Shown: piece after piece, positions 9,079-30,270 of the stretch
Numbering within the stretch: the first letter of the stretch is position 1
Layout of the letters: each line of letters opens with the position of its first letter
IMG/VR virus record: IMGVR_UViG_3300035670_006342
Span: 1 to 30,270 of that record
Origin: a virus
Reading direction: 5' to 3' (one strand)
DNA: 30,270 bases
Position numbers and translations under genes: made by a program
Notes under the pieces: model-generated
Told to the model about the DNA's origin: nothing
What the model saw: the letters and a program-made list of their open reading frames with translations, nothing else
The model's database searches: none

Positions 9079-9842
9079 TTACTTAATTTTAGAAATTTCC
9101 CTTACCCCTTTTTTGCTATTTTGAGAATTTGCCAAATTCATTAAAATTCTTTTCATATCCTCTACGCTTTGAACTTTTTCTTCCTTTGGACTATCAATAT
9201 CCCAATTAAACATAAAATCTTCAAACTTAGCCGGTGTAGCTCCTTTCTTGCCATAGGCTTGAATCATCAAATTAGTGAATATCCAAGCTAAATACGATGT
9301 TCTATAATCAGCCCTTGATTCTCCAATAGGATCAATTACATTGTATGCTTCCCATTCAGCTAATTGTGAACTTGTTAAATGCTGTAATAAATAATCAGGA
9401 TGAAGTACACCTATTTCACGGCAGAGCCTGAACTGGAATTGCCGTCCGGGACGGCTTCTGAGTTTTTTAGTATCTCATCCTTATCCTTTTCAGTTATTGC
9501 ATTCAGCTTTTGTGCAATATTCACAATCCTTTCAATATTCGTGGCACTCATCATTTTATTAAGAGTCTTCACGTCTTTTGGTTCAAATAACAAATTGCCT
9601 TCTGCATCACATACAGTGACCACAGCCAACTTTGCTCTAAAATCTTCAAGTGTGGTTTCATATTCCACAGCCTTATTTTTGTCACCTGAAGCCTTTTGTT
9701 TTAACATTGATTGTTCCCAAATGTCTTTTTCACGACCTGTCATTTCACGCACAAATACGTGCCCACGAGTTAGTTCAACTTTTTCGATTTTTAATTCGTC
9801 CCTCTGTAAAAGAAGTTCCCTGTTTAAAAAAACTGATTCCAT
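9079..9842 (-). CDS. Tail assembly chaperone GT, made by -1 frameshift (254 aa)
   Basis: This is the long form of the lambda G/GT-type chaperone, which loads tail-tube subunits on the tape measure. Reading starts at 9842, shifts by -1 at the A AAA AAC heptamer ending at base 9462, and continues to the TAA at 9081-9079. That gives 127 residues before and 127 after the shift. The -1 frame is open from base 9474. It reads through segments FRLCREIGVLHPDYLLQHL, SSQLAEWEAYNVIDPIGE and RADYRTSYLAWIFTNLM, which are typical of the downstream T domain of siphovirus tail chaperones. An isolated 63-residue frame at 9079-9270 is only the tail end of this fusion and has no good start of its own. The stop codon abuts the tape-measure ATG, the standard place for this gene. 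Confidence 0.85.
9411..9842 (-). CDS. Tail assembly chaperone G, unshifted form (143 aa)
   Basis: This is the short product of the same start codon, ending at a TAG at 9413-9411 when no frameshift occurs. It lies between tail tube and tape measure, as the lambda G protein does. The N-terminal half contains VELTRGHVFVREMTGREKD, a pattern common in phage tail chaperones. The C-terminal tail (NSEAVPDGNSSSGSAVK) is low-complexity and is the stretch that overlaps the frameshift signal, so that sequence may be constrained by RNA structure more than by protein function. The leader before the ATG is AT-rich with no Shine-Dalgarno site. It shares the 12-mer AATTAAAAATTA with the leader of the tail-tube gene. 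Identity rests on context and the linked frameshift more than on strong sequence motifs. Confidence 0.85.
   Translation of the reverse strand: MESVFLNRELLLQRDELKIEKVELTRGHVFVREMTGREKDIWEQSMLKQKASGDKNKAVEYETTLEDFRAKLAVVTVCDAEGNLLFEPKDVKTLNKMMSATNIERIVNIAQKLNAITEKDKDEILKNSEAVPDGNSSSGSAVK
9441..9468 (-). promoter_or_regulatory. Programmed -1 ribosomal frameshift signal: slippery heptamer plus hairpin
   Basis: On the coding strand bases 9468-9462 read A AAA AAC. They lie in the zero frame as CTA AAA AAC, which is the X XXY YYZ arrangement required for tandem slippage. Six bases later comes a perfect GC hairpin: GCCGTC (9455-9450), a three-base loop CCG, and GACGGC (9446-9441). Such a GC-rich stem stands out in this AT-rich genome. 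Slippage here joins the chaperone frame to the frame that ends at 9079. Confidence 0.88.
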
Positions 9843-9876
9843 TTTGATTAATTTTTAATTGTTAATGAATAAATAT

Positions 9877-9895
9877 AAAAAACACTTGATTAGTG
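9877..9895 (-). terminator. Weak hairpin plus T-run after the tail-tube gene
   Basis: On the coding strand the sequence is CACT-AATCA-AGTG followed directly by six T residues, nine bases after the tail-tube stop codon. The four-base-pair stem is short, so any termination is probably partial. The same 13-base element occurs after the major capsid gene, which supports a function at the 3' ends of the two most abundant structural messages. Confidence 0.5.
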
Positions 9896-9904
9896 GTAAT
9901 TCAA

Positions 9905-10366
9905 CTATGCAACATCAGACGGTACTCCAGAACTCCCTGAATTGACTACAACCTTGCCAGATACCTTAATGGTAACATTGGCAGTGACTTTATCATCTGT
10001 TGGAATATCCAACGGACATTCAGTAACCAATCCACAAAATTCAAATGAAGTAGAATCAGCATCTGGTAAAACAATCTGATAGAACCTTGGAGTATTACTT
10101 TCAAAGTCTGTCATCATCAAATCGTAAGTGTCACGGGTAAAATTCATTGTTAAACTTACCGTACCACCATCACGGAATCCAGTAATGAACTCCCTATATC
10201 CACCAGTAGAATCGAGAGAAGTGACATCAATGGTGTCCCTTGTCATTGTAGGCCCTGAAATAGAGTTTATTTCTGACAATTTTTCCCACGCATTCAAATC
10301 ACTGTACCTCAGAAATACAGTCCCAACACCTGAAAAGGCTTGACTGCTTGTTAAAGTACAACCCAT
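9905..10366 (-). CDS. Major tail tube protein (153 aa)
   Basis: This is the probable tail-tube subunit. Size and position fit: after the tail-terminator gene and before the chaperones. The sequence is rich in beta-type residues and in Thr/Ser, with MTRDTIDVTSLDSTGGYREF and the later GGTVSLTMNFTRD. These resemble the 'test for change, T/S-rich strand' pattern of lambda gpV / TP901-type tube proteins. Residues ~125-145 (VTANVTIKVSGKVVV) form the expected C-terminal beta strands. The start is set by the ATG right after an AT-rich leader carrying AATTAAAAATTA; no Shine-Dalgarno site is visible. A hairpin with a T-run follows the stop. A 61-base untranslated gap upstream may hold a promoter, but no clear match was found. 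Confidence 0.8.
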   Translation of the reverse strand: MGCTLTSSQAFSGVGTVFLRYSDLNAWEKLSEINSISGPTMTRDTIDVTSLDSTGGYREFITGFRDGGTVSLTMNFTRDTYDLMMTDFESNTPRFYQIVLPDADSTSFEFCGLVTECPLDIPTDDKVTANVTIKVSGKVVVNSGSSGVPSDVA

Positions 10367-10427
10367 AATTTTTAATTTTTAATAAATTAATTTAAAAACA
10401 ACATCATTAAATTATACATGCCCAACT

Positions 10428-10853
10428 TCACAAACATCTCCTTTGCACTTCAAAATTAACAATAAAACGCACTCTTTGATTCTTGTCATAATCCAATAAA
10501 GCTGGACTCATTGAACAACGTATCAAAGCATAAAAAGTAGTACCCCATGTCTCATTTGCCCGGCCATGAAGCATATTTTTAATCCAATTAATTTGTTCCC
10601 AACCATCTGTATAATAATTAGCCCGTATTCTTATTTGAAAACTTGTGTATTCATAATACTCAGTTCTATCAAAAGTCAATTTCTGACCGTATGAACCTGT
10701 TTCAAATATAGAAATAACATCAGCAGGTTCAGCAGGTTCTTTTCCAATATATATTGGAAAAAGAGTAATATCATCTGCACTATCAGAAGTACCTGAACCT
10801 ACTTGCTCGTAATATTCAAGCATTGTTTTAATATCTTCAGAAGCTGAATTCAT
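10428..10853 (-). CDS. Tail terminator / tail completion protein (141 aa)
   Basis: The protein is predicted to cap the tail tube at the head end. The assignment comes mainly from gene order: it follows an HK97 gp10-like gene and precedes the tail tube. The length (141 residues) is normal for terminator proteins. Segments such as YEYTSFQIRIRANYYTDG and the closing RVRFIVNFEVQRRC have the alternating beta pattern seen in the 'minor capsid/tail terminator' families. The start follows one base after the upstream stop region. No Shine-Dalgarno site is present, so coupled translation is likely. Confidence 0.65.
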   Translation of the reverse strand: MNSASEDIKTMLEYYEQVGSGTSDSADDITLFPIYIGKEPAEPADVISIFETGSYGQKLTFDRTEYYEYTSFQIRIRANYYTDGWEQINWIKNMLHGRANETWGTTFYALIRCSMSPALLDYDKNQRVRFIVNFEVQRRCL

Positions 10854-10854
10854 A

Positions 10855-11355
10855 TCATACTGCTTTTTCTGCGTTCACTGCTATAATATCTAACATAGCT
10901 GGTCTATCCCTTTGCAAAGATTCCATAAACCAATGTGGACCTGACCCCGGTCTTGTCCATTTAACATCACCGTAAGGTGGGTGTGTCATTTCATGAACAT
11001 ACCAAGCATATTCTTTTGTATAACCCATAGTTATTTTACCACCTACCGGAGTTACCATAGTTTCAACTTCCCAAGTATCTCTCAAATGTTCATCTTTTAT
11101 ATCATTTGAAACAGGTACTAAAGGTGGAATAGTTTCCATATTATTATGCAAATATTCTGCCGCCATTTCCATTCCTGCAATAGTAGCACCCTGTATTTGC
11201 CCTACCCTGTATTGAAAAGCACGAATTACATTCCTTGTTCCAACAATACGTGCATTGAATCCAAATGTACGTGGTCCGGTTGACATTGAAGGTCTGTCAC
11301 CAACAACGGTTCTACGCATCCTTTTACCAGCAGGTATATACCAACTTTGTGCCAT
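10855..11355 (-). CDS. HK97 gp10-like neck/tail-completion protein (166 aa)
   Basis: This resembles the HK97 gp10 family of head-tail joining or tail-completion proteins. The matching features are the helix-forming AFQYRVGQIQGATIAGMEMA followed by AAEYLHNNMETIPP, the central DTWEVET, and the tyrosine-rich YTKEYAWYVHEMTHPPYG before a short C-terminal helix. The gp10 family typically has 'A..Ya..vh' and 'lr.Sw' patterns in the same order. It sits between the head-closure and tail-terminator candidates, as expected. The basic N-terminus (IPAGKRMRRTVVGDRP) is an extension whose role is unknown. A weak AAGG lies upstream of the ATG. Confidence 0.7.
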   Translation of the reverse strand: MAQSWYIPAGKRMRRTVVGDRPSMSTGPRTFGFNARIVGTRNVIRAFQYRVGQIQGATIAGMEMAAEYLHNNMETIPPLVPVSNDIKDEHLRDTWEVETMVTPVGGKITMGYTKEYAWYVHEMTHPPYGDVKWTRPGSGPHWFMESLQRDRPAMLDIIAVNAEKAV

Positions 11356-11363
11356 AACTTCAA

Positions 11364-11771
11364 CTATTTACCTTGATCATACAACCAAGCAATTCTTACA
11401 AATTCATCTGTTTTCCTTACCATAGGAATTTTATCAAACCTATGTATTAAATAAGCACCGGGAATAGTAATAGGTTTTGAAGTATCATACGAACTATCAA
11501 TATCAGACAATGTACCAAGATACAAATATCCTTGCAAATCTACATCTTGCAAAACCATTACATTTGATTTTGACAATAAAATATTTCCCGGAAATCCACT
11601 TGAAAACCACCCCAAATTTACTTCGTTTGTATCTTCCCAACGACAAAGTATTTCAACAGGATCATCATAAGTAAAATGCCCGTAACCATCATTCTGTGGA
11701 TTGCCCCAATAAACGCAAGTTTGAACACAGAATCTTTGAGCAACTCGTTCTATCCCTTTGTATGTTGTCAT
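11364..11771 (-). CDS. Head closure / head-tail joining protein (135 aa)
   Basis: This probable stopper protein closes the portal channel after packaging. It is assigned from its place between the adaptor and the gp10-like gene and from its length. Features seen are QTCVYWGNPQNDGYGHFTYD, CRWEDTNEV, a central KSNVMVLQDVDLQGYLYLG and a C-terminal VRKTDEFVRIAWL. The 'W(E)...v...G....s...v.v..d...G..L' pattern occurs in SPP1 gp16-like and related joining proteins. It starts two bases after the adaptor stop, without a Shine-Dalgarno site. The precise family is not certain. Confidence 0.62.
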   Translation of the reverse strand: MTTYKGIERVAQRFCVQTCVYWGNPQNDGYGHFTYDDPVEILCRWEDTNEVNLGWFSSGFPGNILLSKSNVMVLQDVDLQGYLYLGTLSDIDSSYDTSKPITIPGAYLIHRFDKIPMVRKTDEFVRIAWLYDQGK

Positions 11772-11773
11772 TT

Positions 11774-12148
11774 TTAATCAAAATTAGGAACTGCCCTTGT
11801 TGAAGCTGATGCTTTTTGTTTTGCAATATTAGCTAAAGTTAATGAGGTATCCAAAGCAATAGCCATTTGTCCGTATGTACTGCCATTTAAACCTATTCCC
11901 CATTGCCCTGCATAATTAATAAAAGCTGTGCCAGCACCTTCTTTTGAAGCTACTCTTTCACGAGTAGTAACAATCATGTGTGCTGTTACCCACATTTCAA
12001 TGTTCTCTAATAAATCATCACTTAAACTTTGACCACCTAAAGTTTCAGTGACAAAAGTATTTGCACTTGCTATATAAGCATCAATAACAGCATCACTTAA
12101 TGAAGTGTTATCAAGTATGTTCTTTACTTCAGCAGCAGTTGTTCTCAT
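11774..12148 (-). CDS. Head-tail connector adaptor, DUF4054/gp6-like (124 aa)
   Basis: This all-helical adaptor is predicted to dock under the portal. The layout is typical: VKNILDNTSLSDAVIDAYI, then ASANTFVTETLGGQSLSD, then LLENIEMWVTAHMIVTTRER. A glycine-rich stretch follows with INYAGQWGIGLNGSTYGQ and MAIALDTS. The 'eIe.w..AH', 'G..L..T.YGQ.a..lD' pattern is characteristic of this family. The gene begins three bases after the stop of the sulfotransferase gene, so the sugar island runs straight into the connector module. It would normally be found close to the capsid gene; here about 8.6 kb of other genes separate them. Confidence 0.78.
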   Translation of the reverse strand: MRTTAAEVKNILDNTSLSDAVIDAYIASANTFVTETLGGQSLSDDLLENIEMWVTAHMIVTTRERVASKEGAGTAFINYAGQWGIGLNGSTYGQMAIALDTSLTLANIAKQKASASTRAVPNFD

Positions 12149-12151
12149 ATT

Positions 12152-12814
12152 TTATTCTCTATTTTTGTTTAATAACGGATCAATAATAGACGGAATTGTG
12201 ATATTCCATTTAAGACCTAACCATTCTATTGTTTCATAAATTTGTTGATAATCACCGTTTACCATTCTATCAGGCCAAATTATTCTACAATTTAAACCTG
12301 TTTGAATCATTTCAACAAATTTCTTTTCGTATTGGTGTACCCACCATAACCAACCTTCTTCCTCATTAGTAAATCCTAATGATTTAAGGTTCTTTTGATC
12401 TTTAAAAATCCGCATATAACCAGTTTTCAAACAAGACTGAATTACATCTGGTGTTTTACGCCTAACAATCAGCCACTTAGCATCTGGGTAGGCATAATTC
12501 CAAATAGGCCACATACGAGCAAGGGTAGCAGATTTTATCATCCAAGGTTTATCCAGAGCTTGTTCTACTAAAAGAACACCTTCAACTGCACCTCTCCATC
12601 TTACAGGTATGCTTATATCTTTAGTTTCTGGAAAAGAATATTGATAATTTTTTAGAAAATCCTTATCAAATTCTGAAATCATGATATGTTCAAACATACC
12701 ATTACAACGTCCTGAATGCACACCACACATATCAAGAATCTTAGCAACCAAAGTAGCCCCTGAACGTTCAGCTCCAGTTATAAAAATAGGATCATATTGT
12801 GACTTTCTTATCAT
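12152..12814 (-). CDS. Sulfotransferase family protein (220 aa)
   Basis: This is predicted to transfer sulfate from PAPS to a hydroxyl group, probably of a sugar. Residues 10-27 (IFITGAERSGATLVAKIL) form the 5'-phosphosulfate-binding loop seen in bacterial sulfotransferases. Residues 114-131 (WLIVRRKTPDVIQSCLKT) match the 3'-phosphate-binding motif, with R118/R119, D123 and S127. The C-terminal region has the usual WWVHQYEKKFVEM helix. Length is short but normal for compact bacterial members. The start overlaps the preceding glycosyltransferase stop (ATGA). It closes the sugar island and is followed at once by the connector gene. The sugar acceptor is unknown; the family call is firm, the substrate is inference. 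Confidence 0.82.
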   Translation of the reverse strand: MIRKSQYDPIFITGAERSGATLVAKILDMCGVHSGRCNGMFEHIMISEFDKDFLKNYQYSFPETKDISIPVRWRGAVEGVLLVEQALDKPWMIKSATLARMWPIWNYAYPDAKWLIVRRKTPDVIQSCLKTGYMRIFKDQKNLKSLGFTNEEEGWLWWVHQYEKKFVEMIQTGLNCRIIWPDRMVNGDYQQIYETIEWLGLKWNITIPSIIDPLLNKNRE

Positions 12815-13509
12815 TGGTAAAATTTATAATCATCACCTATTAATTCCTTTAATTTATTCATACCTCTATCAGAAATAAAGTCAAGCCCCTTATGACCAAC
12901 ACCAATTCCATAACGTCCGGGCAACCCTTTTATTCCTATTGCTAAATTTTCACCTTGAAATAAATTTGCATTTTGCACTTTCTTAAAAAAACTTATATCA
13001 ATGTGCCTTTCTTTCAAACAACTTTCAAATACAGGAATCATATTTACTCTAATACCTGTCTGAAATAAACTTGAATGATGTATATTTCTAAATACTTTAT
13101 ACCCCTTACGTTCTACATGATAATAAACGGTATTAATCTCACCAACAACATCAAAGTCTTTTAACTTAGCAACCATTTTTTGAATATAGTCCGGTTTATA
13201 ATAGTCATCATCTTCAATAAAAAGTACAGCTTCTATCCAATCTTCCGAGAATACTTTGACAATATCCAACCCAATTTGTAAATTTCTACTTTGTGTATTA
13301 CTACCTTCTTTCCATCTTGGAAATGGATACCTTCTTATTATTGTCCACTTATCACGAAAATCATCAGTGAGTATATCAGTTGTTCTTGGTTCACAATCAT
13401 CAATAACAATCCAAATAATCTTATTTGCATAAGTTTGTTGTTGCATCCACCTCATACACAATTCAAATTGTTTTGGACGCCCTCCTGTCGGTGTAATCAA
13501 TATTACCAT
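12811..13509 (-). CDS. Glycosyltransferase, GT2/GT-A fold (232 aa)
   Basis: The nucleotide-sugar binding half is clear: MVILITPTGGRPKQFELCM at the N-terminus, the first acidic pair in IWIVIDDCEPR (residues 32-42), and the metal-binding DDD at residues 100-102 within VLFIEDDDYYKPDYI. A later GYKVFRNIHHSSLFQ and the C-terminal GRYGIGVGHKGLDFIS may form the acceptor side. The donor and acceptor are unknown. It overlaps the upstream gene by seven bases and the downstream gene by four, so it is co-translated in the sugar island. A processive synthase is unlikely because there are no membrane helices; a soluble single-addition enzyme is more likely. Confidence 0.83.
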   Translation of the reverse strand: MVILITPTGGRPKQFELCMRWMQQQTYANKIIWIVIDDCEPRTTDILTDDFRDKWTIIRRYPFPRWKEGSNTQSRNLQIGLDIVKVFSEDWIEAVLFIEDDDYYKPDYIQKMVAKLKDFDVVGEINTVYYHVERKGYKVFRNIHHSSLFQTGIRVNMIPVFESCLKERHIDISFFKKVQNANLFQGENLAIGIKGLPGRYGIGVGHKGLDFISDRGMNKLKELIGDDYKFYQ

Positions 13510-14270
13510 ATACCTAACAATTTATTTCTTATTTCAATAATTTTTGTAGAAGTATGATTAGATTTTTCTTCTATTCCTTCATACAATTCCATACTCCAAG
13601 TATAATCACAATCAACTCGACCACGTTGAAGTTTTTTCAAGAATTCCTCTCTTGACCGATTCCAGTAATGATTAATCCATGCTTTTTCCATTACTGGAGT
13701 ATGAGTATATGGAGAAGTAATAATATTCCCACTTAAATCAAGACATTCACCTGTATGATAATGGAAATAATGAGGATTAACTGTCCCTTCAACAGAAAGT
13801 GGTTGAACAATAGATTTAACGTGCTGATTAATTTCATGTTCAGGAAAAGTATGTCTTGTAAATTTATCAATCTGGGAACCTTCAACCTTATATTCACCAG
13901 TACCACCAAACACCACCCAATTTAATGCTAATCCTGAACTTGTAACTTCTGAAAGTAATTCTTTAATAGAACCAGATTCAACCACAATAAATTCATCATC
14001 ATCAATAAATGCAATCCAATCACAAGTTGGTTGGCAACGCCATCTTTGCATATAAATACAATACATATAGACAGGCTGTTGCATTCTTGTTCCCGGTGTC
14101 AAATACACAAATATATTTGGATTATCCGATACTATATTCTGCACAGGAATTTCAGAACCATTATCAAAAAGAAAGAAATAATCAACACCAATCAGCTTAT
14201 GCCAATCAATCCATTCCCTTAAATATTCAGGATCACAATCTTTTACTATGGCACAAATTCCTACATTCAT
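13503..14270 (-). CDS. Glycosyltransferase, GT92/Glyco_tranf_2_4-like (255 aa)
   Basis: The opening MNVGICAIVKDCDPEYLREW followed by IDWHKLIGVDYFFLFDNGS is the signature of GT92-type transferases. The metal-binding site is DDDEF at residues 90-94 in WIAFIDDDEFI. A downstream HYFHYHTGECLDL and AWINHYWNRSREEFLKKLQRG match the family's conserved 'i.HY..rS.eef..K..rG' segment. Sugar specificity cannot be read from the sequence; some GT92 proteins are galactosyltransferases. It begins four bases inside the preceding methyltransferase gene and lacks a Shine-Dalgarno site. Confidence 0.85.
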   Translation of the reverse strand: MNVGICAIVKDCDPEYLREWIDWHKLIGVDYFFLFDNGSEIPVQNIVSDNPNIFVYLTPGTRMQQPVYMYCIYMQRWRCQPTCDWIAFIDDDEFIVVESGSIKELLSEVTSSGLALNWVVFGGTGEYKVEGSQIDKFTRHTFPEHEINQHVKSIVQPLSVEGTVNPHYFHYHTGECLDLSGNIITSPYTHTPVMEKAWINHYWNRSREEFLKKLQRGRVDCDYTWSMELYEGIEEKSNHTSTKIIEIRNKLLGIW

Positions 14271-14830
14271 ATTAATATTCTTTTAACCCAACTACCATCA
14301 CAAAATACTTGATCTGGAGGACCTAATAATTCATCTACTGCCTTCATAACACCAGCCCATCCCGGAACGTAATCATGCCCACCAATAAAACCACCTTTTA
14401 CAATAAACGGTTTATAATTCATAATATCTTTATAAACTTGTTCATACGTATGGCAACCATCAATATAAACAAACCATACTTTCATATTATGAAATTTTTT
14501 AAATGCTTCATCAGACGTTTCCTTTATAAGTCCTATATTTAGAATTTGTTCAGTATTTTTAATAAACTGTGCATATACTTTTGAAAACTCGGCATACTGG
14601 GAAACCCCATAATTTTCCGGATAATTATCTATGAAAGGATCAATAGTAACCACAAATCCAAAATCTTCTGCAAACATCATAGTTGAATCCCCAATATAAG
14701 CACCTATCTCAATCATAGGTTTATCTGAAGTTTCAAAAAACGTATTTAGATAACCAATCATATCTTGTAAACCACGCTTCTGATCTAAAAATCGCATTGG
14801 GAAAAATTCATTATGTTTTTTATCTTCCAT
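14267..14830 (-). CDS. Class I SAM methyltransferase, CmcI/Methyltransf_24-like (187 aa)
   Basis: SAM-binding motif I is at residues ~39-53 (PMIEIGAYIGDSTMMFA). It is followed by VVTIDPFI and by VWFVYIDGCHTYEQVYKDI, which is the family's metal-site segment. GGFIGGHDYVPGWAGVMKAVDE completes the usual pattern. Members of this group methylate sugar hydroxyls or small molecules; here an O-methyltransferase for a glycan is the natural guess from the neighbours. The gene starts six bases after the 1207-residue gene and overlaps the GT92 gene by four bases. No signal peptide or membrane segment is seen, so it acts in the cytoplasm. Confidence 0.82.
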   Translation of the reverse strand: MEDKKHNEFFPMRFLDQKRGLQDMIGYLNTFFETSDKPMIEIGAYIGDSTMMFAEDFGFVVTIDPFIDNYPENYGVSQYAEFSKVYAQFIKNTEQILNIGLIKETSDEAFKKFHNMKVWFVYIDGCHTYEQVYKDIMNYKPFIVKGGFIGGHDYVPGWAGVMKAVDELLGPPDQVFCDGSWVKRILI

Positions 14831-14836
14831 CTTATT

Positions 14837-17800
14837 TTATGGTATAAATAAAGGTTCCTCAATATGTTTTAATTCTAAATTACGATTATTACAATAACGC
14901 CTACATTCCGTTGCATAAATACCATTGGCAAAATCATTGACACCTTGATCACCTACCATCTTAGCAATATCAGCCCGTACCATAAACGTGCCCATATCTA
15001 TCTTGTTACCACCATACACTATACCTACTCCATTATTTCCTATTCCAGTCATTATGTGTTCAACAAATTCTGAATTATAACATCTTTCATTATTTGTTAT
15101 TAATACAAAATCATCCTTCTCACACTTCAACTGTTGTAATATCATCTGCCTATTTGGATGAATAATATGTTTTTGGGTTATTCTTTGAGAGAATATAAAA
15201 TGAACACGAGAATCTTTGTACAAAGAAAACGTATCCATCATATCCTGTGGTGGAATACCGTCATATATGATTTGCAATGTCCAGTTTGGGTTTGACTGAA
15301 TTAGAAAATTATCTATAAATTCTTTTACCTGAACTGGTGTGCCATAAACAGTACAAACAGCATGAAGTATTCTTTGTTTTTCATTTACTTTTACCTGTAC
15401 TTGTGATTGTGCTTGTATTTTCGGCTGTTTCTGTATTTGCTTCTGGATTTGTGGTTGTGGTTGTATTGTCTTAATTCTTTTATAAATAACAATAAAACCA
15501 TTCATAAATTGTATTGATTCAAATAAAGGTACATTCACATGACAATCTTCCCTTCTGTGCCATCCTTTACTTAGATCACCAAATTCCTGTGGTGGATTTA
15601 CTGGCATACTTCCTCTTGCTCCTTTAAGATGAACTTCATCTACCAATGTCTTAAAATACTCTACTGCTGAAATTGGATTATTTTTATATTCTTCCCAATA
15701 AGAAGTCGTGGTATCTTCAACAATATAAATGCCACCATCCTTCAAATAAGGGAAAAGTGTTTTAAAAGTTAGAATTTGTTCCATCCAATAATGATTACCA
15801 TCATCTATAATTAAATCAAATGGTGAAAACTGTTCAAGATTCTTAAGTTGTGCCTCATCTCTTTGATCGAGCAAATGAAATTTAATTCTATTTGAATATG
15901 ATTCACATATTTTAGATGCCGGTGAAATATCAGCTCCGTAAATAGTAGCTTTTGGAAAATAATCTGCCCACATTTTTATAGATTGCCCTTGTGCTACACC
16001 TATTTCTAAAATTGATAAAAAGGAATTTCTAAATGGTGATAGTATTCGTTCATATTTTACAGCATAATTATGATATCTGGAAGATTTGTCTGATTTGTGT
16101 AAAATAGCCATGTTATCCAAAACACTATCTACAACTAATTCATTAATTTCATATTTTTCCGGTGGAAAAACTTCTTCATGTTTTTTCATTAAGTTCAAAT
16201 GTCTTCTTACACCTATATCCCATAAAGAAGATTGTTTCAAATCAGTAGCAATCATTGTAGGTCTTTTTCCCATTCTAACAACCTGTTCATAAAAGGCATT
16301 TTTGCTTTTATGTTCAAATTGATAACAATCTTCCCGTGTGTGCATAGGATCACTTGGAAAAATCAGCTTCTTAGATATTTCCTTGGTAACTAAAAATCCA
16401 GTAGTTCTTATATGTGGTTTCACTTCTCTTGAAATTTCATAACAAGGAATGTTTACATCAGATAAAATATCTAAAAAAGAAGCTACAAAATTCTTAGACA
16501 TCGGAATACAATCATCTGTAATCCATATTAAATTATCCCAATCATTTGGAAAATCTGTAAGTCTTTCTTTACACACATCTTGAAAAGCACCAAGATCAAA
16601 ACCTACATTTTCCCTTGCTACGTATTTCACACCATTATCAACACATAATTTCAAATATTTATGATTATCACTTTCTTGATTATGAACGACAATCAATTCT
16701 GCCCACAATTTATCACATTGATTCCAACAATTTATCCATCTTTTTAAATTCTCAAATCTATTCCAAACAATAATAACAACAATAGTCTTAGAAATAGGTC
16801 TACTTTCTTTCAACCATAAATCATACCATTTGTGTATTTTGCTATTGACATTTTTCTTATCATTTTTAAATGGTTTGGACTCTTGACAATGTACAATGAA
16901 AGGTTTATCAGGTACTGGAAGTTCTGGAATTTGAGCACCATAAGTGTCCATATAATTCCATTCCATTGGAAGTATTTTGATCTTTATTTTATCTGCATAA
17001 ATAAAATCATTAAGAATTCCTTCATCAATAGAATAAGTAAAATCTGATTTATTGGCATATTCTAATAATCTTTGATACCATTGATTATTTACAATTTTTT
17101 GATTTGCGACCAACAAAGCAGGTTGAATGTCAATCTTGCCATCTGCTATTCTTTTCCTTAGACCTTGTAATCTTAGCCCATAATTCTTTTCCAATGCAAA
17201 TGTGTTCTTTTTAAATATACGAGACACAATCATATCTTCAGTTGAAATTAAATCATATTTACTAAGTTCTTCACTAAATAAATAAGATATATCCTCAAGA
17301 CAAATACAATCAGAATCAATACATATCACACGATCATATCCTTCAAAATTGAACATTTCATAACGATACCACGAAGAAGCATATTTTTCTTTTGGAAGAT
17401 CATTGATATACTTGACATCAGCATAACGGGCTTTAATTTCTGATGTAACAATATGACAATTATCTGCTCCTAAATCATTAACAACTTCCATATCATCAGT
17501 AATGACTTTAAAGTCAATTCCTGTGCAATCTGTATGGCGTTTAATCGAATTAAATAAAGTTCTACCAGCTACCTTATATCTCCTATCAAATACAGTCGTT
17601 ATACATATTTTGCCATTTATTCTTACATTTGTTTTTAAAACACCTGAATAATTATACTCATCCCACCATTGATCATGAAACTTTTGTATTCTACCATCTA
17701 CCTCTTTTCTAAGACGTTTAAATGGTTTGGACTCTTGACAATGCACAATGATTGGATCAACTTCAGGAAGTTGTGAACATCGAATTGCATACAAATCTTG

Positions 17801-18460
17801 ATAATCCCATTCTAACGGAAGTAGTTTTATTTTTATATTTTCAGTATAAATAAAATTATTTAAAGTACCTTGATCAATAGAATATGAATAAGGAGCAGTA
17901 TTGGCATATTTTAATAAGTTATTATACCAAGTTTTATTCACAATGGACTTGTTTGCTACTAATAAAGCTGGTTGAATATCTATCTTGCCTTCTGCTAATC
18001 TTTCAGTAAGTTTAGCAAGATGGAATCCATGCCCTTCTAATTGTGGAATAGACTTTGCAAAAAACTTTGAAACAATATGATCTTCTACTGAAATTAAATC
18101 ATATTGATTGAGTTCTTCACTGAAAAGATAGGAAATATCTTTGATGCAGATACAATCAGAATCAATACAAATAACCCTATCATAATCAGTCATGCTGAAT
18201 ATCTCATAACGATACCAAGAAGTACTGTATTTTTCAACTGTCAATGATTCACAATATTTAACATTACTGTATCTGGCTTTTATTTCATCAGTAACAAAAT
18301 GGCAATTATCCTTACCTAATTCATTCAATACCTCTTCATCTGCTGTAATGACTTTAAAATCAATTCCCGTACAATCTGTATAACGGCGAATAGACTTGAA
18401 TAAAATCTGTCCAGCAAGTTTATAATTTCTATCAAAAGCAGTGACAATACATATTTTCAT
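14837..18460 (-). CDS. Five-domain glycosyltransferase-methyltransferase fusion (1207 aa)
   Basis: Five units can be seen in order. Residues 1-270 and 284-550 are two related GT8-like domains, each with DSD (100-102 and 382-384), a DIQPALLVAN block and a VHCQESKPFK block. Residues ~558-770 resemble a GT-A or RgpF-like domain (VVIIVWNRFENLKRW, NVGFDLGAFQDVCKE, WITDDCIP). Residues ~780-997 form a SAM methyltransferase like the MycE group (ILEIGVAQGQSIKMWADYF, FDLIIDDGNHYWMEQ, YIVEDTTTSYWEEY). Residues ~998-1028 are a Gln-rich linker. Residues ~1030-1207 look like a further GT2-like half-domain (HAVCTVYGTP, IIYDGIP). An AGGAG lies eight bases before the ATG, one of the few good ribosome sites here. 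It probably assembles and methylates a short glycan; substrates are unknown. Confidence 0.82.
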   Translation of the reverse strand: MKICIVTAFDRNYKLAGQILFKSIRRYTDCTGIDFKVITADEEVLNELGKDNCHFVTDEIKARYSNVKYCESLTVEKYSTSWYRYEIFSMTDYDRVICIDSDCICIKDISYLFSEELNQYDLISVEDHIVSKFFAKSIPQLEGHGFHLAKLTERLAEGKIDIQPALLVANKSIVNKTWYNNLLKYANTAPYSYSIDQGTLNNFIYTENIKIKLLPLEWDYQDLYAIRCSQLPEVDPIIVHCQESKPFKRLRKEVDGRIQKFHDQWWDEYNYSGVLKTNVRINGKICITTVFDRRYKVAGRTLFNSIKRHTDCTGIDFKVITDDMEVVNDLGADNCHIVTSEIKARYADVKYINDLPKEKYASSWYRYEMFNFEGYDRVICIDSDCICLEDISYLFSEELSKYDLISTEDMIVSRIFKKNTFALEKNYGLRLQGLRKRIADGKIDIQPALLVANQKIVNNQWYQRLLEYANKSDFTYSIDEGILNDFIYADKIKIKILPMEWNYMDTYGAQIPELPVPDKPFIVHCQESKPFKNDKKNVNSKIHKWYDLWLKESRPISKTIVVIIVWNRFENLKRWINCWNQCDKLWAELIVVHNQESDNHKYLKLCVDNGVKYVARENVGFDLGAFQDVCKERLTDFPNDWDNLIWITDDCIPMSKNFVASFLDILSDVNIPCYEISREVKPHIRTTGFLVTKEISKKLIFPSDPMHTREDCYQFEHKSKNAFYEQVVRMGKRPTMIATDLKQSSLWDIGVRRHLNLMKKHEEVFPPEKYEINELVVDSVLDNMAILHKSDKSSRYHNYAVKYERILSPFRNSFLSILEIGVAQGQSIKMWADYFPKATIYGADISPASKICESYSNRIKFHLLDQRDEAQLKNLEQFSPFDLIIDDGNHYWMEQILTFKTLFPYLKDGGIYIVEDTTTSYWEEYKNNPISAVEYFKTLVDEVHLKGARGSMPVNPPQEFGDLSKGWHRREDCHVNVPLFESIQFMNGFIVIYKRIKTIQPQPQIQKQIQKQPKIQAQSQVQVKVNEKQRILHAVCTVYGTPVQVKEFIDNFLIQSNPNWTLQIIYDGIPPQDMMDTFSLYKDSRVHFIFSQRITQKHIIHPNRQMILQQLKCEKDDFVLITNNERCYNSEFVEHIMTGIGNNGVGIVYGGNKIDMGTFMVRADIAKMVGDQGVNDFANGIYATECRRYCNNRNLELKHIEEPLFIP
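16811..18457 (-). repeat. Tandem internal duplication of the GT8-like domain
   Basis: The coding strand carries two copies of an approximately 270-residue glycosyltransferase unit, offset by about 282 codons (bases 18457-17651 and 17611-16811). The copies remain close at DNA level: a 27-base stretch is identical at 17717-17743 and 16865-16891, covering the HCQESKPFK codons. Both keep the DSD metal site. This points to duplication within the gene followed by modest divergence. Confidence 0.8.
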
Positions 18461-18468
18461 AACTAATT

Positions 18469-18473
18469 CTCCT
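18469..18473 (-). promoter_or_regulatory. Shine-Dalgarno site of the 1207-residue fusion gene
   Basis: AGGAG lies eight bases before the ATG and overlaps the last codons of the upstream methyltransferase gene. Most sugar-island genes lack such a site and depend on start/stop overlaps, so this marks an independent translation start in the middle of the island. Confidence 0.6.
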
Positions 18474-19680
18474 ATATTATTTTCATATCAGGAAACATTG
18501 TAATAAATTTACCAGTGTATTGCCCTTTCAAAGAATCAATGATGTAATCTTTGAAATTATGTGCCAAAATAATTATATAATCAATTTTGGTATTTTTTAA
18601 TTTTTCCCTGCTCACAACTTCTATTCCTGTACCGGGAACAAATTTTCCTTGTTTGAAAGTAGTATCATCAACAATAAATTGAATCATGGTGTGGTCTATT
18701 CCACAAGTGTTTAAAAAGACACAACCTTTTGCAGCAGCCCCAAAACAAGCAATAGAAGCCCCTTTGGTAAATGCAAGTCTTTTCACATCAATTTCATAAT
18801 CCCTGATCTTCTTCTTTGTCTGTGTTCCCCACTTCAAACAGTATTCAGTAGTAAGAGTTTTTTCAAGATTCAGGAAAGATAAAATTGTACTGTCCGGTTG
18901 CCTACGTGAAGATGCTTTTGCAATTAATACACGCAATGTGCCGGCGTGCATATCGTGATAAGATACATTGATAACCTTTAACCCTTCCTGTTTTGCAATA
19001 TCGACAATATTGTGTAAGCAAAAGTAATATACGTGTTCGTGATAAACCTGATCGTAATTATCATTCGCTAAAGTAGTAAGTATGTAAGGGAATTCCAAAC
19101 ACCATATACCTTCATTTGATAAATTTCTACGAATACCTTGAACAAAAGATCGCATTGGTTCTGTATGTTGAAATACATTGGTTGAAGTAATCAACTTTGC
19201 TTTATAAGGCAAAACTGTATCACTACCAAAATATTCATTGATATATTCAATGCCAGCATCACGATTAACATCAATGAAACTACGGCTGCAATCTACATTA
19301 ACGTAATACAAATTACGATTCTCTTTACGAAATTCTTTCAGTAAACTACCATCATTTCCACCTACATCAAGTATCAAATCATTATCCTTAAAATCAATTA
19401 TGTGAGACAAATAATCATACATTTCCCCACAGTGCTTCAAATAAGGCTTATTCACACCTGATTGATAAAGGTAATGCAAAAACAGATTGTCTTTTTCCAC
19501 GGTTTCTGTCAAACAGGTCACTTTGCTATTTGGGAAAAATTGCACAGCAAGAGGAAATTTCTCACAAGACAAAGATTCTTCCTTTGTAGAACAAAGATTA
19601 TTTACAAGTGGAATATTACCTAAATTTAAAAATTCTACACCATCTGATTCTCCCGATATTGGACTATTTGTAATTTTCAT
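18472..19680 (-). CDS. Sugar C-methyltransferase-like protein, Methyltransf_13/14 family (402 aa)
   Basis: The protein has the three-part layout of TylCIII/NovU-type C-methyltransferases. Residues 1-60 correspond to the zinc-binding N-domain (LNLGNIPLVNN), but the usual N-terminal CxxC pair is missing and the second pair is broken. Residues ~100-125 hold SAM motif I (LILDVGGNDGSLLKEF). Around residues 205-225 is the hallmark YDQVYHEHVYYF, followed by HAGTLRVLIAK. The C-terminal third is a Rossmann-like domain (ASIACFGAAAKGCVFLNTC). The family methylates carbon atoms of NDP-keto-deoxysugars. No dTDP-sugar biosynthesis genes are visible, so the substrate must come from the host. The start overlaps the upstream stop by four bases. 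Confidence 0.83.
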   Translation of the reverse strand: MKITNSPISGESDGVEFLNLGNIPLVNNLCSTKEESLSCEKFPLAVQFFPNSKVTCLTETVEKDNLFLHYLYQSGVNKPYLKHCGEMYDYLSHIIDFKDNDLILDVGGNDGSLLKEFRKENRNLYYVNVDCSRSFIDVNRDAGIEYINEYFGSDTVLPYKAKLITSTNVFQHTEPMRSFVQGIRRNLSNEGIWCLEFPYILTTLANDNYDQVYHEHVYYFCLHNIVDIAKQEGLKVINVSYHDMHAGTLRVLIAKASSRRQPDSTILSFLNLEKTLTTEYCLKWGTQTKKKIRDYEIDVKRLAFTKGASIACFGAAAKGCVFLNTCGIDHTMIQFIVDDTTFKQGKFVPGTGIEVVSREKLKNTKIDYIIILAHNFKDYIIDSLKGQYTGKFITMFPDMKII

Positions 19681-20369
19681 AATTGTAGAGCTTCTTGTAA
19701 AGTTATTTTTGGAAAATTATTTATGGCACTATTTGGACAAATATTATAAATCTGAATACCAAGATTTTTTGCATCATTGGCAATAGTAGGAAATGATTTT
19801 AAATGCCTGTCAAAAGGCAATCTAACCTTGTTTTTAGGCAAAGCCTTTTCATTATAAAGACTATGCCAATGCTGAATATTCCCATCAAGTTTCATATCAA
19901 ATCCCAATAAGAATATTCTTTTAGCACCAGCATTTACAGCAACACTGATTGAAGCTGCCCCACTATTGGTATTCCAACTTACTGAATTTGGTTTTGTTGA
20001 AATACCATAAGGTTTTGGCATTTCCCTATTCAATGTTTTAACCCACTCATACCTAATAGTAGAAGGGGTGCAACTCACTTTTAATCCCGGAAATAAAAAA
20101 ATATCATCTTTATTTTTGATAAAATAATTCGTGTCTCCAAAAAACATCATATCAATCCAATTCCCAATTTTATAAGCCATATTAATACCAATAATATGCT
20201 TTTTGTGAATAGATTCCATATATGTTGAGTATGCACTTAATGGTAATGCTTTTGAAATAACACCATCAATTACTTCTTGTGGTATTTCAAATTGTTTAGG
20301 TAATGAAGGACCCCCACCAAGAATCCAAACATCACCACCCTCCCATATTCTCGGAACAGACCAATTCAT
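19677..20369 (-). CDS. DUF115/Maf- or GT42-like sugar transferase (230 aa)
   Basis: The protein starts with a Rossmann-type loop, DVWILGGGPSLPKQF (residues 13-27), then HIIGINMAYKIGNWIDMMF and GDTNYFIKN. A second conserved block is NTNSGAASISVAVNAGAKR followed by IFLLGFDMKLDG. This combination is shared by DUF115 (MptE-like, and flagellin-modifying Maf proteins) and by GT42-type sialyltransferases. Either would make it a transferase of acidic or nonulosonic sugars, possibly onto protein; that is inference. It is the first gene of the sugar island and overlaps the preceding gene as TAATG. No membrane segment is present. Confidence 0.68.
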   Translation of the reverse strand: MNWSVPRIWEGGDVWILGGGPSLPKQFEIPQEVIDGVISKALPLSAYSTYMESIHKKHIIGINMAYKIGNWIDMMFFGDTNYFIKNKDDIFLFPGLKVSCTPSTIRYEWVKTLNREMPKPYGISTKPNSVSWNTNSGAASISVAVNAGAKRIFLLGFDMKLDGNIQHWHSLYNEKALPKNKVRLPFDRHLKSFPTIANDAKNLGIQIYNICPNSAINNFPKITLQEALQL

Positions 20370-20752
20370 TATAGTGTTTTCAAAATACGGTTTGCTGCTT
20401 CTTCCGACATGGAATTTTCATTCAACTGCTTTCCCTGTGAATCAATAATATTCCAACCATCAGGAGTTTCTTGCAAAGTATAATTAGTAGAAGGCTTTGC
20501 TTTTGCCAAAGAATCTTCTGCCACTTCCTTATCTAATGGAATAACCACATCACGAAATTGTTTGGGAATTTCTTCTGGGTAAGCCGTAAATACTTGATTT
20601 GGCTTAATATAACGATTATTCAACAAGAAAGAACCACCACCAACTTTCTTCCATCTAATTGGTGCTCTTACAGGTTCTTCTGTTGCAACTGTTTCAACAG
20701 GAGTATTTTCAGGTACAACCTGATTTCCTATTCTTCTTACTCTTTGTACCAT
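20369..20752 (-). CDS. Unidentified 127-residue protein after the capsid gene
   Basis: Not recognised. It begins with a basic stretch (MVQRVRRIGNQVV), followed by a Pro/Glu/Thr-rich linker (residues ~14-32). A compact segment IRWKKVGGGSFLLNNRYIK (residues ~32-50) comes next, then PNQVFTAYPEEIPKQFRD and a C-terminal GWNIIDSQGKQLNENSMSEE. There are no membrane segments or cysteines. It lies 51 bases after the capsid stop and beyond the hairpin/T-run, and its stop overlaps the DUF115-like start. It may be a virion protein (a capsid accessory protein or a substrate of the sugar island) or a regulator; nothing in the sequence decides this. Confidence 0.75.
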   Translation of the reverse strand: MVQRVRRIGNQVVPENTPVETVATEEPVRAPIRWKKVGGGSFLLNNRYIKPNQVFTAYPEEIPKQFRDVVIPLDKEVAEDSLAKAKPSTNYTLQETPDGWNIIDSQGKQLNENSMSEEAANRILKTL

Positions 20753-20803: not shown

Positions 20804-21892
20804 CTAACTCATGTGAACAATACCAGTTCTACTGTTATAATCAGAACGGATTTGAGGAACCTGAATAGTAAGCACTTTATATTTGGTAATAAAATTACCT
20901 TCAGTGTTCCATTCAACATTGGTAAGCCCCATTCCTCTGACAATGCGAATAACATCAGTAGTTGTCTGCACCAAAAGAACATTTGAGGAAGCTAAACGGT
21001 CAATGACCATAATACCCTGAATACCGGCAATTTTCATAATCCTTTCACGGATTGTAGTTCCCGGAGTAGTAGTATCATAATCATTATCCAAACGAGTTTC
21101 AAAATTTGTAGGAATATAAAGCATCCACGGTCCATAAAAGTAATTGTTAATTGAAGCCTGTTTCATCGCAAGCACACTTTCAACAATCTTCGCTCCGGTT
21201 GTGGCAGTGGTCGCCCAATCACCATAAGTAGCAAGAGTAACCAGTTCACGATCAGGATAATTTACAAGACTGTAAATAGTTCCACCACCATAAGCATAGG
21301 TTTGATCTTTGAAGCACAAATCTTCACACTTTTCAGCAACTCTACGAGCCGCCCTTTCAGCAGAAGTTGTGTCCAAAGGATTACCCATATTACGACTGGT
21401 AGCAAGTACACGGGAATTGATTTCATAATCAACATGGATTATCGGAATGGGCAGGTAAGTTGTTCCAAACACCGGACGGTCACCTTTGCTACGGGTTACA
21501 CCATCCATTGTCATATCAGCTTCCATCGCATCCGATACAGTATGGGATTCCAGTACGGTTGTTCCCATAGCATTTCCAAGATTGTAAACCAATCCTTTAC
21601 CTACCAAATCATTGAATCCAGTTAAACGCTGTTCAGCAATTTTGATAATAGCTTCATCCAAAGCCATCCATTCTTCCCTACGAAGTGTTCCAGTATTTAC
21701 CTGAATCATTTCATAGTTCTTCGGGTCTTTCTGATCTCCACCTTTAAATACACTGATATATGGTTTCCCATCTTCAGCAACAAAGGGACGCATTCTGGCA
21801 GGGTTCAACTTCTGGTTGGCTTGCATATAATTTGCAACTTCACCAACACCTCCATTAACACCCAACAAATCAATATTTACATTCGGTTCCAT
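20804..21892 (-). CDS. Major capsid protein, HK97 fold, encapsulin/linocin-like (362 aa)
   Basis: This is the head shell subunit. The middle of the protein carries GLVYNLGNAMGTTVLES, LPIPIIHVDYEINSRVLA and the block GNPLDTTSAERAARRVAEK followed by CEDLCFKD. These are characteristic of phage capsid proteins grouped with linocin/encapsulins, which share the HK97 fold. The C-terminal domain ends with VLTIQVPQIRSDYNSRTG, the usual closing beta strand. Its neighbours are decoration protein and protease upstream. The start is fixed by a perfect AGGAGGTGA three bases before the ATG, the strongest ribosome site in the window. A hairpin with eight T residues follows the stop, consistent with a highly expressed message. 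Confidence 0.88.
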   Translation of the reverse strand: MEPNVNIDLLGVNGGVGEVANYMQANQKLNPARMRPFVAEDGKPYISVFKGGDQKDPKNYEMIQVNTGTLRREEWMALDEAIIKIAEQRLTGFNDLVGKGLVYNLGNAMGTTVLESHTVSDAMEADMTMDGVTRSKGDRPVFGTTYLPIPIIHVDYEINSRVLATSRNMGNPLDTTSAERAARRVAEKCEDLCFKDQTYAYGGGTIYSLVNYPDRELVTLATYGDWATTATTGAKIVESVLAMKQASINNYFYGPWMLYIPTNFETRLDNDYDTTTPGTTIRERIMKIAGIQGIMVIDRLASSNVLLVQTTTDVIRIVRGMGLTNVEWNTEGNFITKYKVLTIQVPQIRSDYNSRTGIVHMS

Positions 21893-28068: not shown

Positions 28069-30270
28069 TTACAATAGTGCATATAACTGCGTATGAGTGA
28101 TTATATCCACATTATTTGCTATTGCGTAATCAATGACAGCCTCCAATAATGCCAATGTAGCATAATTAGAATTAATTACTTCCCCATCTGTTGAAACAAC
28201 AAGATGACCATATAGACAAAGTGCCAATTTTCCATTTTTCGCAAGGTCAATTAATCCGGTATATGTTGCAATATCTGCTATTGTCCCAGTAAATGATTTT
28301 GACGGCAAATCGAATTTGTCAACATTTTTACCGAATAACCCAACGCCTGTATATCCATTCTGTGTACCTCGTGCGGATAATCTTAACCCGCTATTTTGTA
28401 TTAACAATTCAATGGCAGTTGTAGTTAAACCAAAAGGATAAGACATTAGCGTTGGGGCTGCCATCCCATTCGATGTAAATGCGGTGTTATTGTTTGTGAG
28501 TTCCGCAAGTATTTGCTCGTCGGTCAGCGAATTCAATCCGGTATGCGTATATGTATGGCATTGAATGTCATGCCCCGCATTTTTCATGGTTATATATTCA
28601 GCCCACGTACAATATCCACTATTTCCCACTAAATTACCTATTACATACCCTGTAAATTTAACCCCTTTTGTTTGGAGCATCGGATACATGAGGTCATACC
28701 AATTATCATAACCATCATCGAATGTCAATAGTAATTTCCCATTATTAAATGGTGTAATAAACCTACTTCTTAAATAAGCATATATTTCAGCTTCACTCGT
28801 TTCCGTATCTGCAATATTGCGACAAATTATCCCTTTTACTTCAATATTTGAATAATTCGTTCCTTGTGCATTTTTCCCCAAGCAAAATCCACCAAGAGCA
28901 GATGTACTGCAATTTCCATTTGTGGCAGTTGTTTCGCTAACCTGAATTTTTGAGGATGCACCATTAAACAATACCTTAACGATATGCCACTCGTCTAATG
29001 GCATATTAGCATTTTGTGTGGCTGAAGCCCCTGCATAAATATTTATTTGAGGTGTTGCTGTTCTTTGCCAGAACAAACCTGCTGCATTACCGCTAAAAAT
29101 AACATCTTGACTCGTCCAAGTAATTTGCCTGAAAACAATGTAAACCATACATGGTTGGTTCCATGTAAAATTTGCCGTCTGCATTGAATTATCTGAACCA
29201 TTGAATAATATGCCCGTATCTGAATATAATGGTTGATTTGTTTCTGTTGCTTGTATTAAGTCATGTCCTAACCCTGATTTATCAGCCCACCTGCTAACCA
29301 GATTATTTGCATCTTTTGTGATTGTTGTTGAATCCAAATAATCAAACCAAGCCACCGTATTTCCGTCATATAAAATAACTGGTGGTTGGTTCACATTTGA
29401 CCCAATGTGAATATTTAACTTAACCACAGAACATCTATCACCAGCATCAAAATCTTCCACCATAAAATCAGATGTGGTAAACGTGGTGTCAGTAACTGAA
29501 CCTATTAAAGTGCTGTTCACATATAAAGCAAATACTCCTGAAATACTCCTTGTAATTTCTACATCGTAATATGTTGTCAGGCTATATGTACTTGCTGATG
29601 TTATCAATGCTGCCGAAAGCACACCATTTGTCACTGAATACAAATAGAACTTTTCATCACTTCCAAACCGTACCAAATACCCATTCTGCGGTGCTGTGGT
29701 TGCATTTCCTGTTGTTGATGCTATGAACAACCAATCCTGAACATTCCCGTCAGCACCTTTATACATAACCTGACTGAATGTTCCGTAGGCTTGTTTGGAA
29801 ACTCTTGCCCTTATTCCTGCTGTTACATTTAACAGGTATTTCGTTCCTTTCTTTATTTTTTTTACGGTTGAATCATCGGCAGTAGCTTCCCCGATTGTCC
29901 ATGAACCTGATACATTAATCCAATCTTTTAGTGCCGTCTGACCTACCGCAGCGTTATCAAATGAATCTCTTAAACTTACTCTTTTGGAAAATATATCATG
30001 GTATTCATACGCTTGCAGTGTTGTTAGTTCAGTGCTGAAAAATCGTAAATCTTCAATCTCAAAAGCACCATAAGTAGCATCATTCAAAGCCAAAGTACAG
30101 GCAGTCATAGCTACATTAGCAGATGATATAAGCACTACGGTTTGCCATTGTCCTGCAATCATAGTAGTTGAAATTTCACTGTTCACATACTTTGTGGCAA
30201 AATCAGCAGCAGTGAGTACCCCTGTATCAATATGAACATAATTACCTGCTGCTGTTCCTTCTAGTATCTT
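28069..30270 (-). CDS. Surface/tail protein with LamG-like modules and NodB deacetylase domain (partial, N-terminus outside)
   Basis: The frame is open to the right edge: 28 codons lie before the GTG at 30186 without a stop, so that GTG is internal and at least 733 residues are present. The visible part has the end of one concanavalin-like module, a second module (from about DSFDNAAVGQTALKDWINVS to LNIHIGS) and a third LamG-like module (VAWFDYLDSTTITK, SRWADKSGLGHDLI, GILFNGSDNSM). The last 223 residues are a NodB domain: TFDDGY, then HTYTH (metal ligands), then SYPFG in place of the usual R-x-P-x-G. NodB enzymes remove acetyl groups from polysaccharides. A receptor-binding or tail-spike enzyme that deacetylates capsule or O-antigen is likely; its place far from the tail module makes this an inference. 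Confidence 0.8.
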   Translation of the reverse strand, partial: KILEGTAAGNYVHIDTGVLTAADFATKYVNSEISTTMIAGQWQTVVLISSANVAMTACTLALNDATYGAFEIEDLRFFSTELTTLQAYEYHDIFSKRVSLRDSFDNAAVGQTALKDWINVSGSWTIGEATADDSTVKKIKKGTKYLLNVTAGIRARVSKQAYGTFSQVMYKGADGNVQDWLFIASTTGNATTAPQNGYLVRFGSDEKFYLYSVTNGVLSAALITSASTYSLTTYYDVEITRSISGVFALYVNSTLIGSVTDTTFTTSDFMVEDFDAGDRCSVVKLNIHIGSNVNQPPVILYDGNTVAWFDYLDSTTITKDANNLVSRWADKSGLGHDLIQATETNQPLYSDTGILFNGSDNSMQTANFTWNQPCMVYIVFRQITWTSQDVIFSGNAAGLFWQRTATPQINIYAGASATQNANMPLDEWHIVKVLFNGASSKIQVSETTATNGNCSTSALGGFCLGKNAQGTNYSNIEVKGIICRNIADTETSEAEIYAYLRSRFITPFNNGKLLLTFDDGYDNWYDLMYPMLQTKGVKFTGYVIGNLVGNSGYCTWAEYITMKNAGHDIQCHTYTHTGLNSLTDEQILAELTNNNTAFTSNGMAAPTLMSYPFGLTTTAIELLIQNSGLRLSARGTQNGYTGVGLFGKNVDKFDLPSKSFTGTIADIATYTGLIDLAKNGKLALCLYGHLVVSTDGEVINSNYATLALLEAVIDYAIANNVDIITHTQLYALL

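Follow-up and report, generated by a model that had tools for sequence, protein, structure and literature searches.

Sugar-modifying genes within a virion structural operon have been described for the mycobacteriophage Corndog. Sections of the report on this phage place an O-methyltransferase and three glycosyltransferases (GTs) between the portal and protease genes, and its authors suggested that the capsid is modified (PMC4351075). According to passages in citing papers (PMC12619734, PMC12363180), capsid and tail-tube subunits of mycobacteriophages are glycosylated at their C-termini. As for phage sulfotransferases, their function was called unclear in a paper on OM43 phages (PMC10580990). 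Here we describe a sugar-gene island in the virus record IMGVR_UViG_3300035670_006342, whose 30,270 bases are the window of this analysis. The island lies on the minus strand at 12152-20752, between the major capsid and head-tail adaptor genes. All eight open reading frames (ORFs) of an original prediction, made from the letters of this stretch, were confirmed there, with most of their labels backed by Pfam or PHROGs (Table 1). We consider it probable that the island is a virion-modification locus, for glycosylation, methylation and sulfation of a virion protein in the cytoplasm, with exchangeable types of glycan.

Relatives were collected by scans of viral contigs, with the capsid protein and the DUF115 protein as queries, and from a few genome-contig and phage-record loci. 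The resulting set has 82 distinct members, the window included, each with both a capsid and an adaptor gene. The island is absent from 11 of these and present at the exact capsid/adaptor site in the other 71, so that the search for the same island in related phages, proposed with the original prediction, found it at one site throughout (71/71). The opposite case, islands at unrelated places with an early promoter of their own, was looked for and not found, the promoters by consensus scans only. Two genes form the ends, or bookends, of the island. Of the relatives, 68 have the DUF115/GT42-like gene, 62 have a sulfotransferase adjoining the adaptor, and 59 have both. Peptide patterns for the sulfotransferase reached three loci only, and a profile run on the collected loci gave about 100 matches. 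The site is dispensable, since in 7 of the 11 island-less relatives the capsid and adaptor genes stand 4-259 bp apart. Mapped on the capsid tree, absence of the island takes at least three changes, of which well-supported branches force one only. A fixed-site, exchangeable set of sugar genes marks a large group of uncultured phages.

The genes in the middle are highly variable. Island proteins of the first 73 relatives fall into 119 clusters, 74 with a single occurrence, and the three common clusters are the 127-residue protein, the sulfotransferase and the DUF115 enzyme. Middle genes include GT11 fucosyltransferase-like, GT9, GT2 and FkbM methyltransferase proteins, as well as an epimerase of the GDP-fucose-synthase type, a DegT aminotransferase, a cupin and others. 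From the window, the S-adenosylmethionine (SAM) methyltransferase belongs to a cluster (C9) of 14 genomes, and the GT2 enzyme to another (C7), also of 14 genomes, usually adjoining the sulfotransferase. The relative L002 has the same two ends, and none of its nine middle genes clusters with any from the middle of the window's island.

Capsid proteins of L031, L033, L049, L053 and L219 are 93-95% identical, and in several pairs of these phages few middle genes, or none, are common to both. Middle genes are absent from L033, L031 and L053 have a mostly common set, and L049 and L219 have another. The middle genes are evidently swapped even between phages with nearly identical capsids. Genes, order, conservation, swapping and families are direct observations in these records. 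Such fast exchange at nearly the same capsid suggests that the surface chemistry of the particle is under strong selection in nature, where little is known of the agents recognising phage particles.

The model of the DUF115/GT42-like enzyme has a mean predicted local distance difference test (pLDDT) score of 95.7. Foldseek ranks CstII structures first (E 8.5e-6, probability 1.00, template modelling score (TM-score) about 0.45-0.5). Residue H189 of the window aligns opposite the CstII segment YIGHSK, which we take to hold the catalytic histidine. The predicted structure has the CstII-like fold and conserved histidine expected of GT42/DUF115 transferases, at a moderate TM-score. These two features make the likeness to Campylobacter CstII (GT42), from which the enzyme differs in sequence (15% identity) and in the level of the TM-score. 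A likeness to the Maf/DUF115 flagellin glycosyltransferases is presumably also present. No genes for cytidine monophosphate (CMP)-nonulosonate donors were found in the window.

At the other end, the sulfotransferase has R17, G19, R119 and S127 invariant in 68 relatives, with E42 and K94 nearly so. The 5'-phosphosulfate-binding loop RSG and the 3'-phosphate-binding motif R(x7)S of Sulfotransfer_3 enzymes, which depend on 3'-phosphoadenosine-5'-phosphosulfate (PAPS), are present. Its best solved relatives are the protein-tyrosine sulfotransferases TPST1/2, with a profile match over the domain, near full length (2.6e-9), and PAPS motifs in common. In seven genomes an adenosine-5'-phosphosulfate (APS) kinase adjoins the terminal sulfotransferase (PF01583, 6.6e-16 for L154:8671-9093), and would make the sulfate donor there. 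Phage sulfotransferases gain a genomic context here, plus a donor-making partner in these seven genomes. Minimal islands, with the sulfotransferase as sole island enzyme, are those of L068 (full record L237) and L165 (L165:13946-14635).

The 127-residue protein, predicted as an unknown, is not an isolated one. By profile, it is a conserved partner of the island, found in 70 of the 71 island-bearing relatives and in none of the 11 island-less ones. In the AlphaFold model two small domains are predicted with confidence, and the linker and N-terminus are looser. The N-terminal domain opens a longer protein, over its first 60-70 residues, in L031, L032, L049 and L053 (independent E-values 1e-17 to 1e-19). 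Two versions of this fusion protein are found, one with a weak Capsule_synth match (L049) and the other with no Pfam match, and the longer partners appear glycosyltransferase-like. A fold search with the 127-residue model gave no significant match, and no Ser/Thr enrichment was found in the linker. The protein was also considered as an ordinary structural protein shared with Brevundimonas phages. This was rejected, because the apparent match came from an alignment forced onto unrelated proteins and the profile gave 0/11 in island-less relatives. Two or three copies of the gene are present near the island start in L055, L097, L099, L106, L111 and L119.

In the virion-modification reading, the island enzymes would be made with the structural proteins and act in the cytoplasm while particles are assembled. 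The first sugar would probably be attached by the DUF115/GT42-like enzyme to a virion protein, at a tail rich in Ser and Thr, for which the C-terminal tail of the tube is the leading candidate. Enzymes of the exchangeable middle would extend and methylate the glycan, and the terminal sulfotransferase would add sulfate from PAPS, supplied in some relatives by the APS kinase. The 127-residue protein, gained and lost with the island, likely tethers the enzymes to the particle, or may serve as a second acceptor. A swap of middle genes would alter surface chemistry and leave the particle itself unchanged. What the enzymes do, on which acceptor, in what order and to what end is what we infer.

Late co-expression and virion modification, as originally predicted, are favoured by the fixed site (71/71), by the lack of a terminator-like site on the minus strand between the capsid and tail tube genes, by the rarity of membrane-like island enzymes (1/480), and by similar genes in the capsid/head-tail region of D3, PAJU2 and Tetraselmis virus S20; a virion protein is the presumed acceptor. 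That prediction missed the bookended, exchangeable nature of the locus, with the small protein that accompanies it and, in some relatives, an APS kinase. A narrower version, possible but tentative, is a “virion serotype” locus, where fixed end enzymes and a swappable middle would assemble a glycan with methyl and sulfate groups on the tube tail or on the 127-residue protein. If true, related phages with the same particle would differ in surface chemistry. We know of no sulfated phage particle described before, and this would be the first.

In terms of the acceptor, the tube protein has a C-terminus rich in Ser, Gly and Thr, which in the window reads VVNSGSSGVPSDVA. A Ser/Gly tail was found in 41 of 45 DUF115-bearing phages vs 1 of 7 DUF115-less phages (Fisher 6.7e-5), and scoring of the last 14 residues gave 42/45 vs 2/7 (p 4e-4), for a pattern noticed before testing and with statistics that ignore shared descent. 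Eleven other comparable proteins showed no association with DUF115. The capsid C-terminus was tried as acceptor and rejected, having no link to DUF115. In sulfotransferase-only phages, long C-terminal extensions of the tube replace the Ser/Gly tail, with many repeats in L068 and about 96 residues in L165. We regard the Ser/Gly tail as a lead to the putative glycan acceptor.

Together with the limits of these statistics, several points weigh against the proposal. Four DUF115-bearing phages (L078, L109, L016 and L052) have no Ser/Gly tail, and the sole DUF115-less positive, L165, matches inside its 96-residue extension and not in a short tail. The sulfotransferase is alone in L068 and L165 and therefore need not act on a glycan of the island. 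A complete nucleotide-sugar pathway is not coded in the window, so the host must supply the donors. Furthermore, the modified virion protein is itself proposed from gene content.

The enzymes also resemble those of O-antigen and capsule loci, with GT9 and the Capsule_synth match of the L049 fusion protein as examples, and swapping of cassettes would fit the matching of varied hosts as well. The island could then alter the host surface (lipopolysaccharide, capsule or S-layer glycans) late in infection, with a role in progeny release or in blocking re-adsorption or superinfection. We find this unlikely. At least two membrane-like segments are present in 1 of 480 island enzymes, vs 42 of 976 other genes, and for this reason no lipid-linked export machinery (flippase, polymerase) is seen. 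The membrane flippase GtrA and the membrane-bound transferases of Gtr-type seroconversion were not found in the island either, and no island-bearing relative has the island anywhere but between capsid and connector genes. An integrase was found in 2 of 17 long records, with one integrase family sought. Most of these phages are thus probably not temperate, and lysogenic conversion would not be typical.

A direct action of the sulfotransferase on protein, as tyrosine O-sulfation of the virion separate from any glycan pathway, would agree with its nearly full-length match to protein-tyrosine sulfotransferases 1 and 2, and with L068 and L165, where it is the sole enzyme and the tubes bear long extensions. 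We hold this doubtful, since most of the genomes with an adaptor-adjacent sulfotransferase (62) have it at the end of a glycan island. PAPS-binding motifs are common to protein-tyrosine and glycan sulfotransferases, so that a resemblance in sequence cannot tell which acceptor is used. Lastly, modification of DNA bases is a frequent role of phage glycosyltransferases (PMC12619734), but here it is very improbable. No hydroxymethylase or base-modifying gene was seen in an incomplete scan of the window and 20 non-structural G004 proteins. The sulfotransferase and C-methyltransferase do not fit this role, and the position is that of a structural operon.

On the minus strand of the window, the decoration and major capsid protein genes come before the island. 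Next are the 127-residue protein, the DUF115/GT42-like enzyme, the C-methyltransferase, the 1207-residue fusion, the methyltransferase, GT92, GT2 and the sulfotransferase, followed by adaptor, connector, neck, connector, tail tube, chaperone and tape measure genes. PHROGs assign the major head protein on one flank, and adaptor, neck, connector, tail tube and chaperone within 9411-12148 on the other. Most genes had been predicted as chained by overlaps of 1-7 bases. This holds for 5 of 9 junctions, with gaps of 3, 6, 11 and 51 bases at the other four. As for the fusion, predicted with five domains, two GT8 domains and a methyltransferase were recovered, and residues 555-790 (RgpF, 0.029) and 1035-1207 have no significant family. 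The G+C content of the island is 31.7% vs about 36% on both flanks, a dip also seen in 58 of 59 relatives (mean 4 points). No long single-base runs hinting at phase variation were found in the island. A 705-residue protein upstream of the head genes (28069-30186) has only a weak virion-structural match (PHROG 10356).

Table 1. Island genes, border genes and candidate acceptor in the window, with supporting family matches.
Feature	Position	Strand	Support
Major capsid protein gene, left border of site	20804..21892	-	PHROG 771/264, PF19774
127-residue island-associated protein, two small domains and linker, candidate tether/acceptor	20369..20752	-	No Pfam family
DUF115/GT42-like glycosyltransferase, first bookend	19677..20369	-	PHROG 4603 “alpha-2,3-sialyltransferase” 6.5e-29; Pfam MptE-like below cut-off
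C-methyltransferase, sugar type (Methyltransf_13/23/14)	18472..19680	-	PF08484 1.7e-28
1207-residue fusion: GT8, GT8, unassigned (weak GT-like), methyltransferase, unassigned	14837..18460	-	GT8 2.3e-15, Methyltransf_24 6.2e-8
SAM methyltransferase (Methyltransf_24, CmcI-like)	14267..14830	-	PF13578 4.3e-14; CmcI below cut-off
GT92-type glycosyltransferase	13503..14270	-	PF01697 7.5e-13
GT2-type glycosyltransferase	12811..13509	-	PF00535 7.2e-6
PAPS-dependent sulfotransferase, last bookend	12152..12814	-	PF13469 8.4e-7
Head-tail adaptor gene, right border of site	11774..12148	-	PHROG 37884/302
Major tail (tube) protein, Ser/Gly-rich C-terminal tail VVNSGSSGVPSDVA, candidate glycan acceptor	9905..10366	-	PHROG 158 9.9e-24

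Host assignment was tried from contigs binned in metagenome-assembled genomes (MAGs) and rejected. The binnings point to Bacteroidota (three contigs, two MAGs), Spirochaetota and Deltaproteobacteria. Strong Shine-Dalgarno sites are present on the capsid, decoration and protease genes, with most other genes lacking strong ones. We do not assign a host, because the binnings conflict and such sites are strong in few genes only. The contig binned as a Spirochaetota MAG (L166:8427-16828) has both bookends in its island, with DUF115 followed by a GT11-like gene. Another locus (L167:11463-14522) contains a small gene and a DUF115 gene, then two virion/adhesin-like ORFs that do not look like sugar enzymes.

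The island resembles the virion glycosylation systems of mycobacteriophages Corndog (gp35-gp38), Che8 and Myrna, and in Corndog GT and O-methyltransferase genes stand likewise in the structural operon. The original prediction knew of glycosylated phage particles, but not of the island's enzyme combination at this place. It missed that a set of GTs plus O-methyltransferase in a virion operon was already on record for Corndog in the sections cited (PMC4351075). The Corndog-type position is another one, and those sections do not describe a sulfotransferase, APS kinase, GT42-like bookend or swapped cassette. In these mycobacteriophages modification is proven, per the excerpts above, whereas for the island it is proposed from its genes.

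Phages D3 and PAJU2 and the Tetraselmis viridis virus S20 have a GT42-like gene in the capsid/head-tail region, with a methyltransferase and further genes. They differ in that their capsids were not retrieved with the window capsid, and the window sulfotransferase was unmatched in the phage collection. In Caulobacter phage CcrSC, a six-gene set (gp516-gp511, L234:5037-9523) lies between tail and endolysin genes, and three of its products match island clusters (DUF115, GT9 and methyltransferase). The protein A064R of Chlorovirus PBCV-1 joins two glycosyltransferase domains and a methyltransferase, which act on the capsid glycan (PMC7019647). Likened by description, it resembles the 1207-residue fusion in domain make-up, and differs in belonging to a eukaryotic virus with an N-linked glycan.

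With the rule of fixed ends, exchangeable middle, fixed site and matched small protein, scattered phage annotations of “sialyltransferase” and “sulfotransferase” become one recognisable locus. Cultured phages with similar genes (D3, PAJU2) render it testable. The virion glycosylation locus is known as a kind; what is new is a locus with fixed ends, an exchangeable middle and a sulfotransferase.

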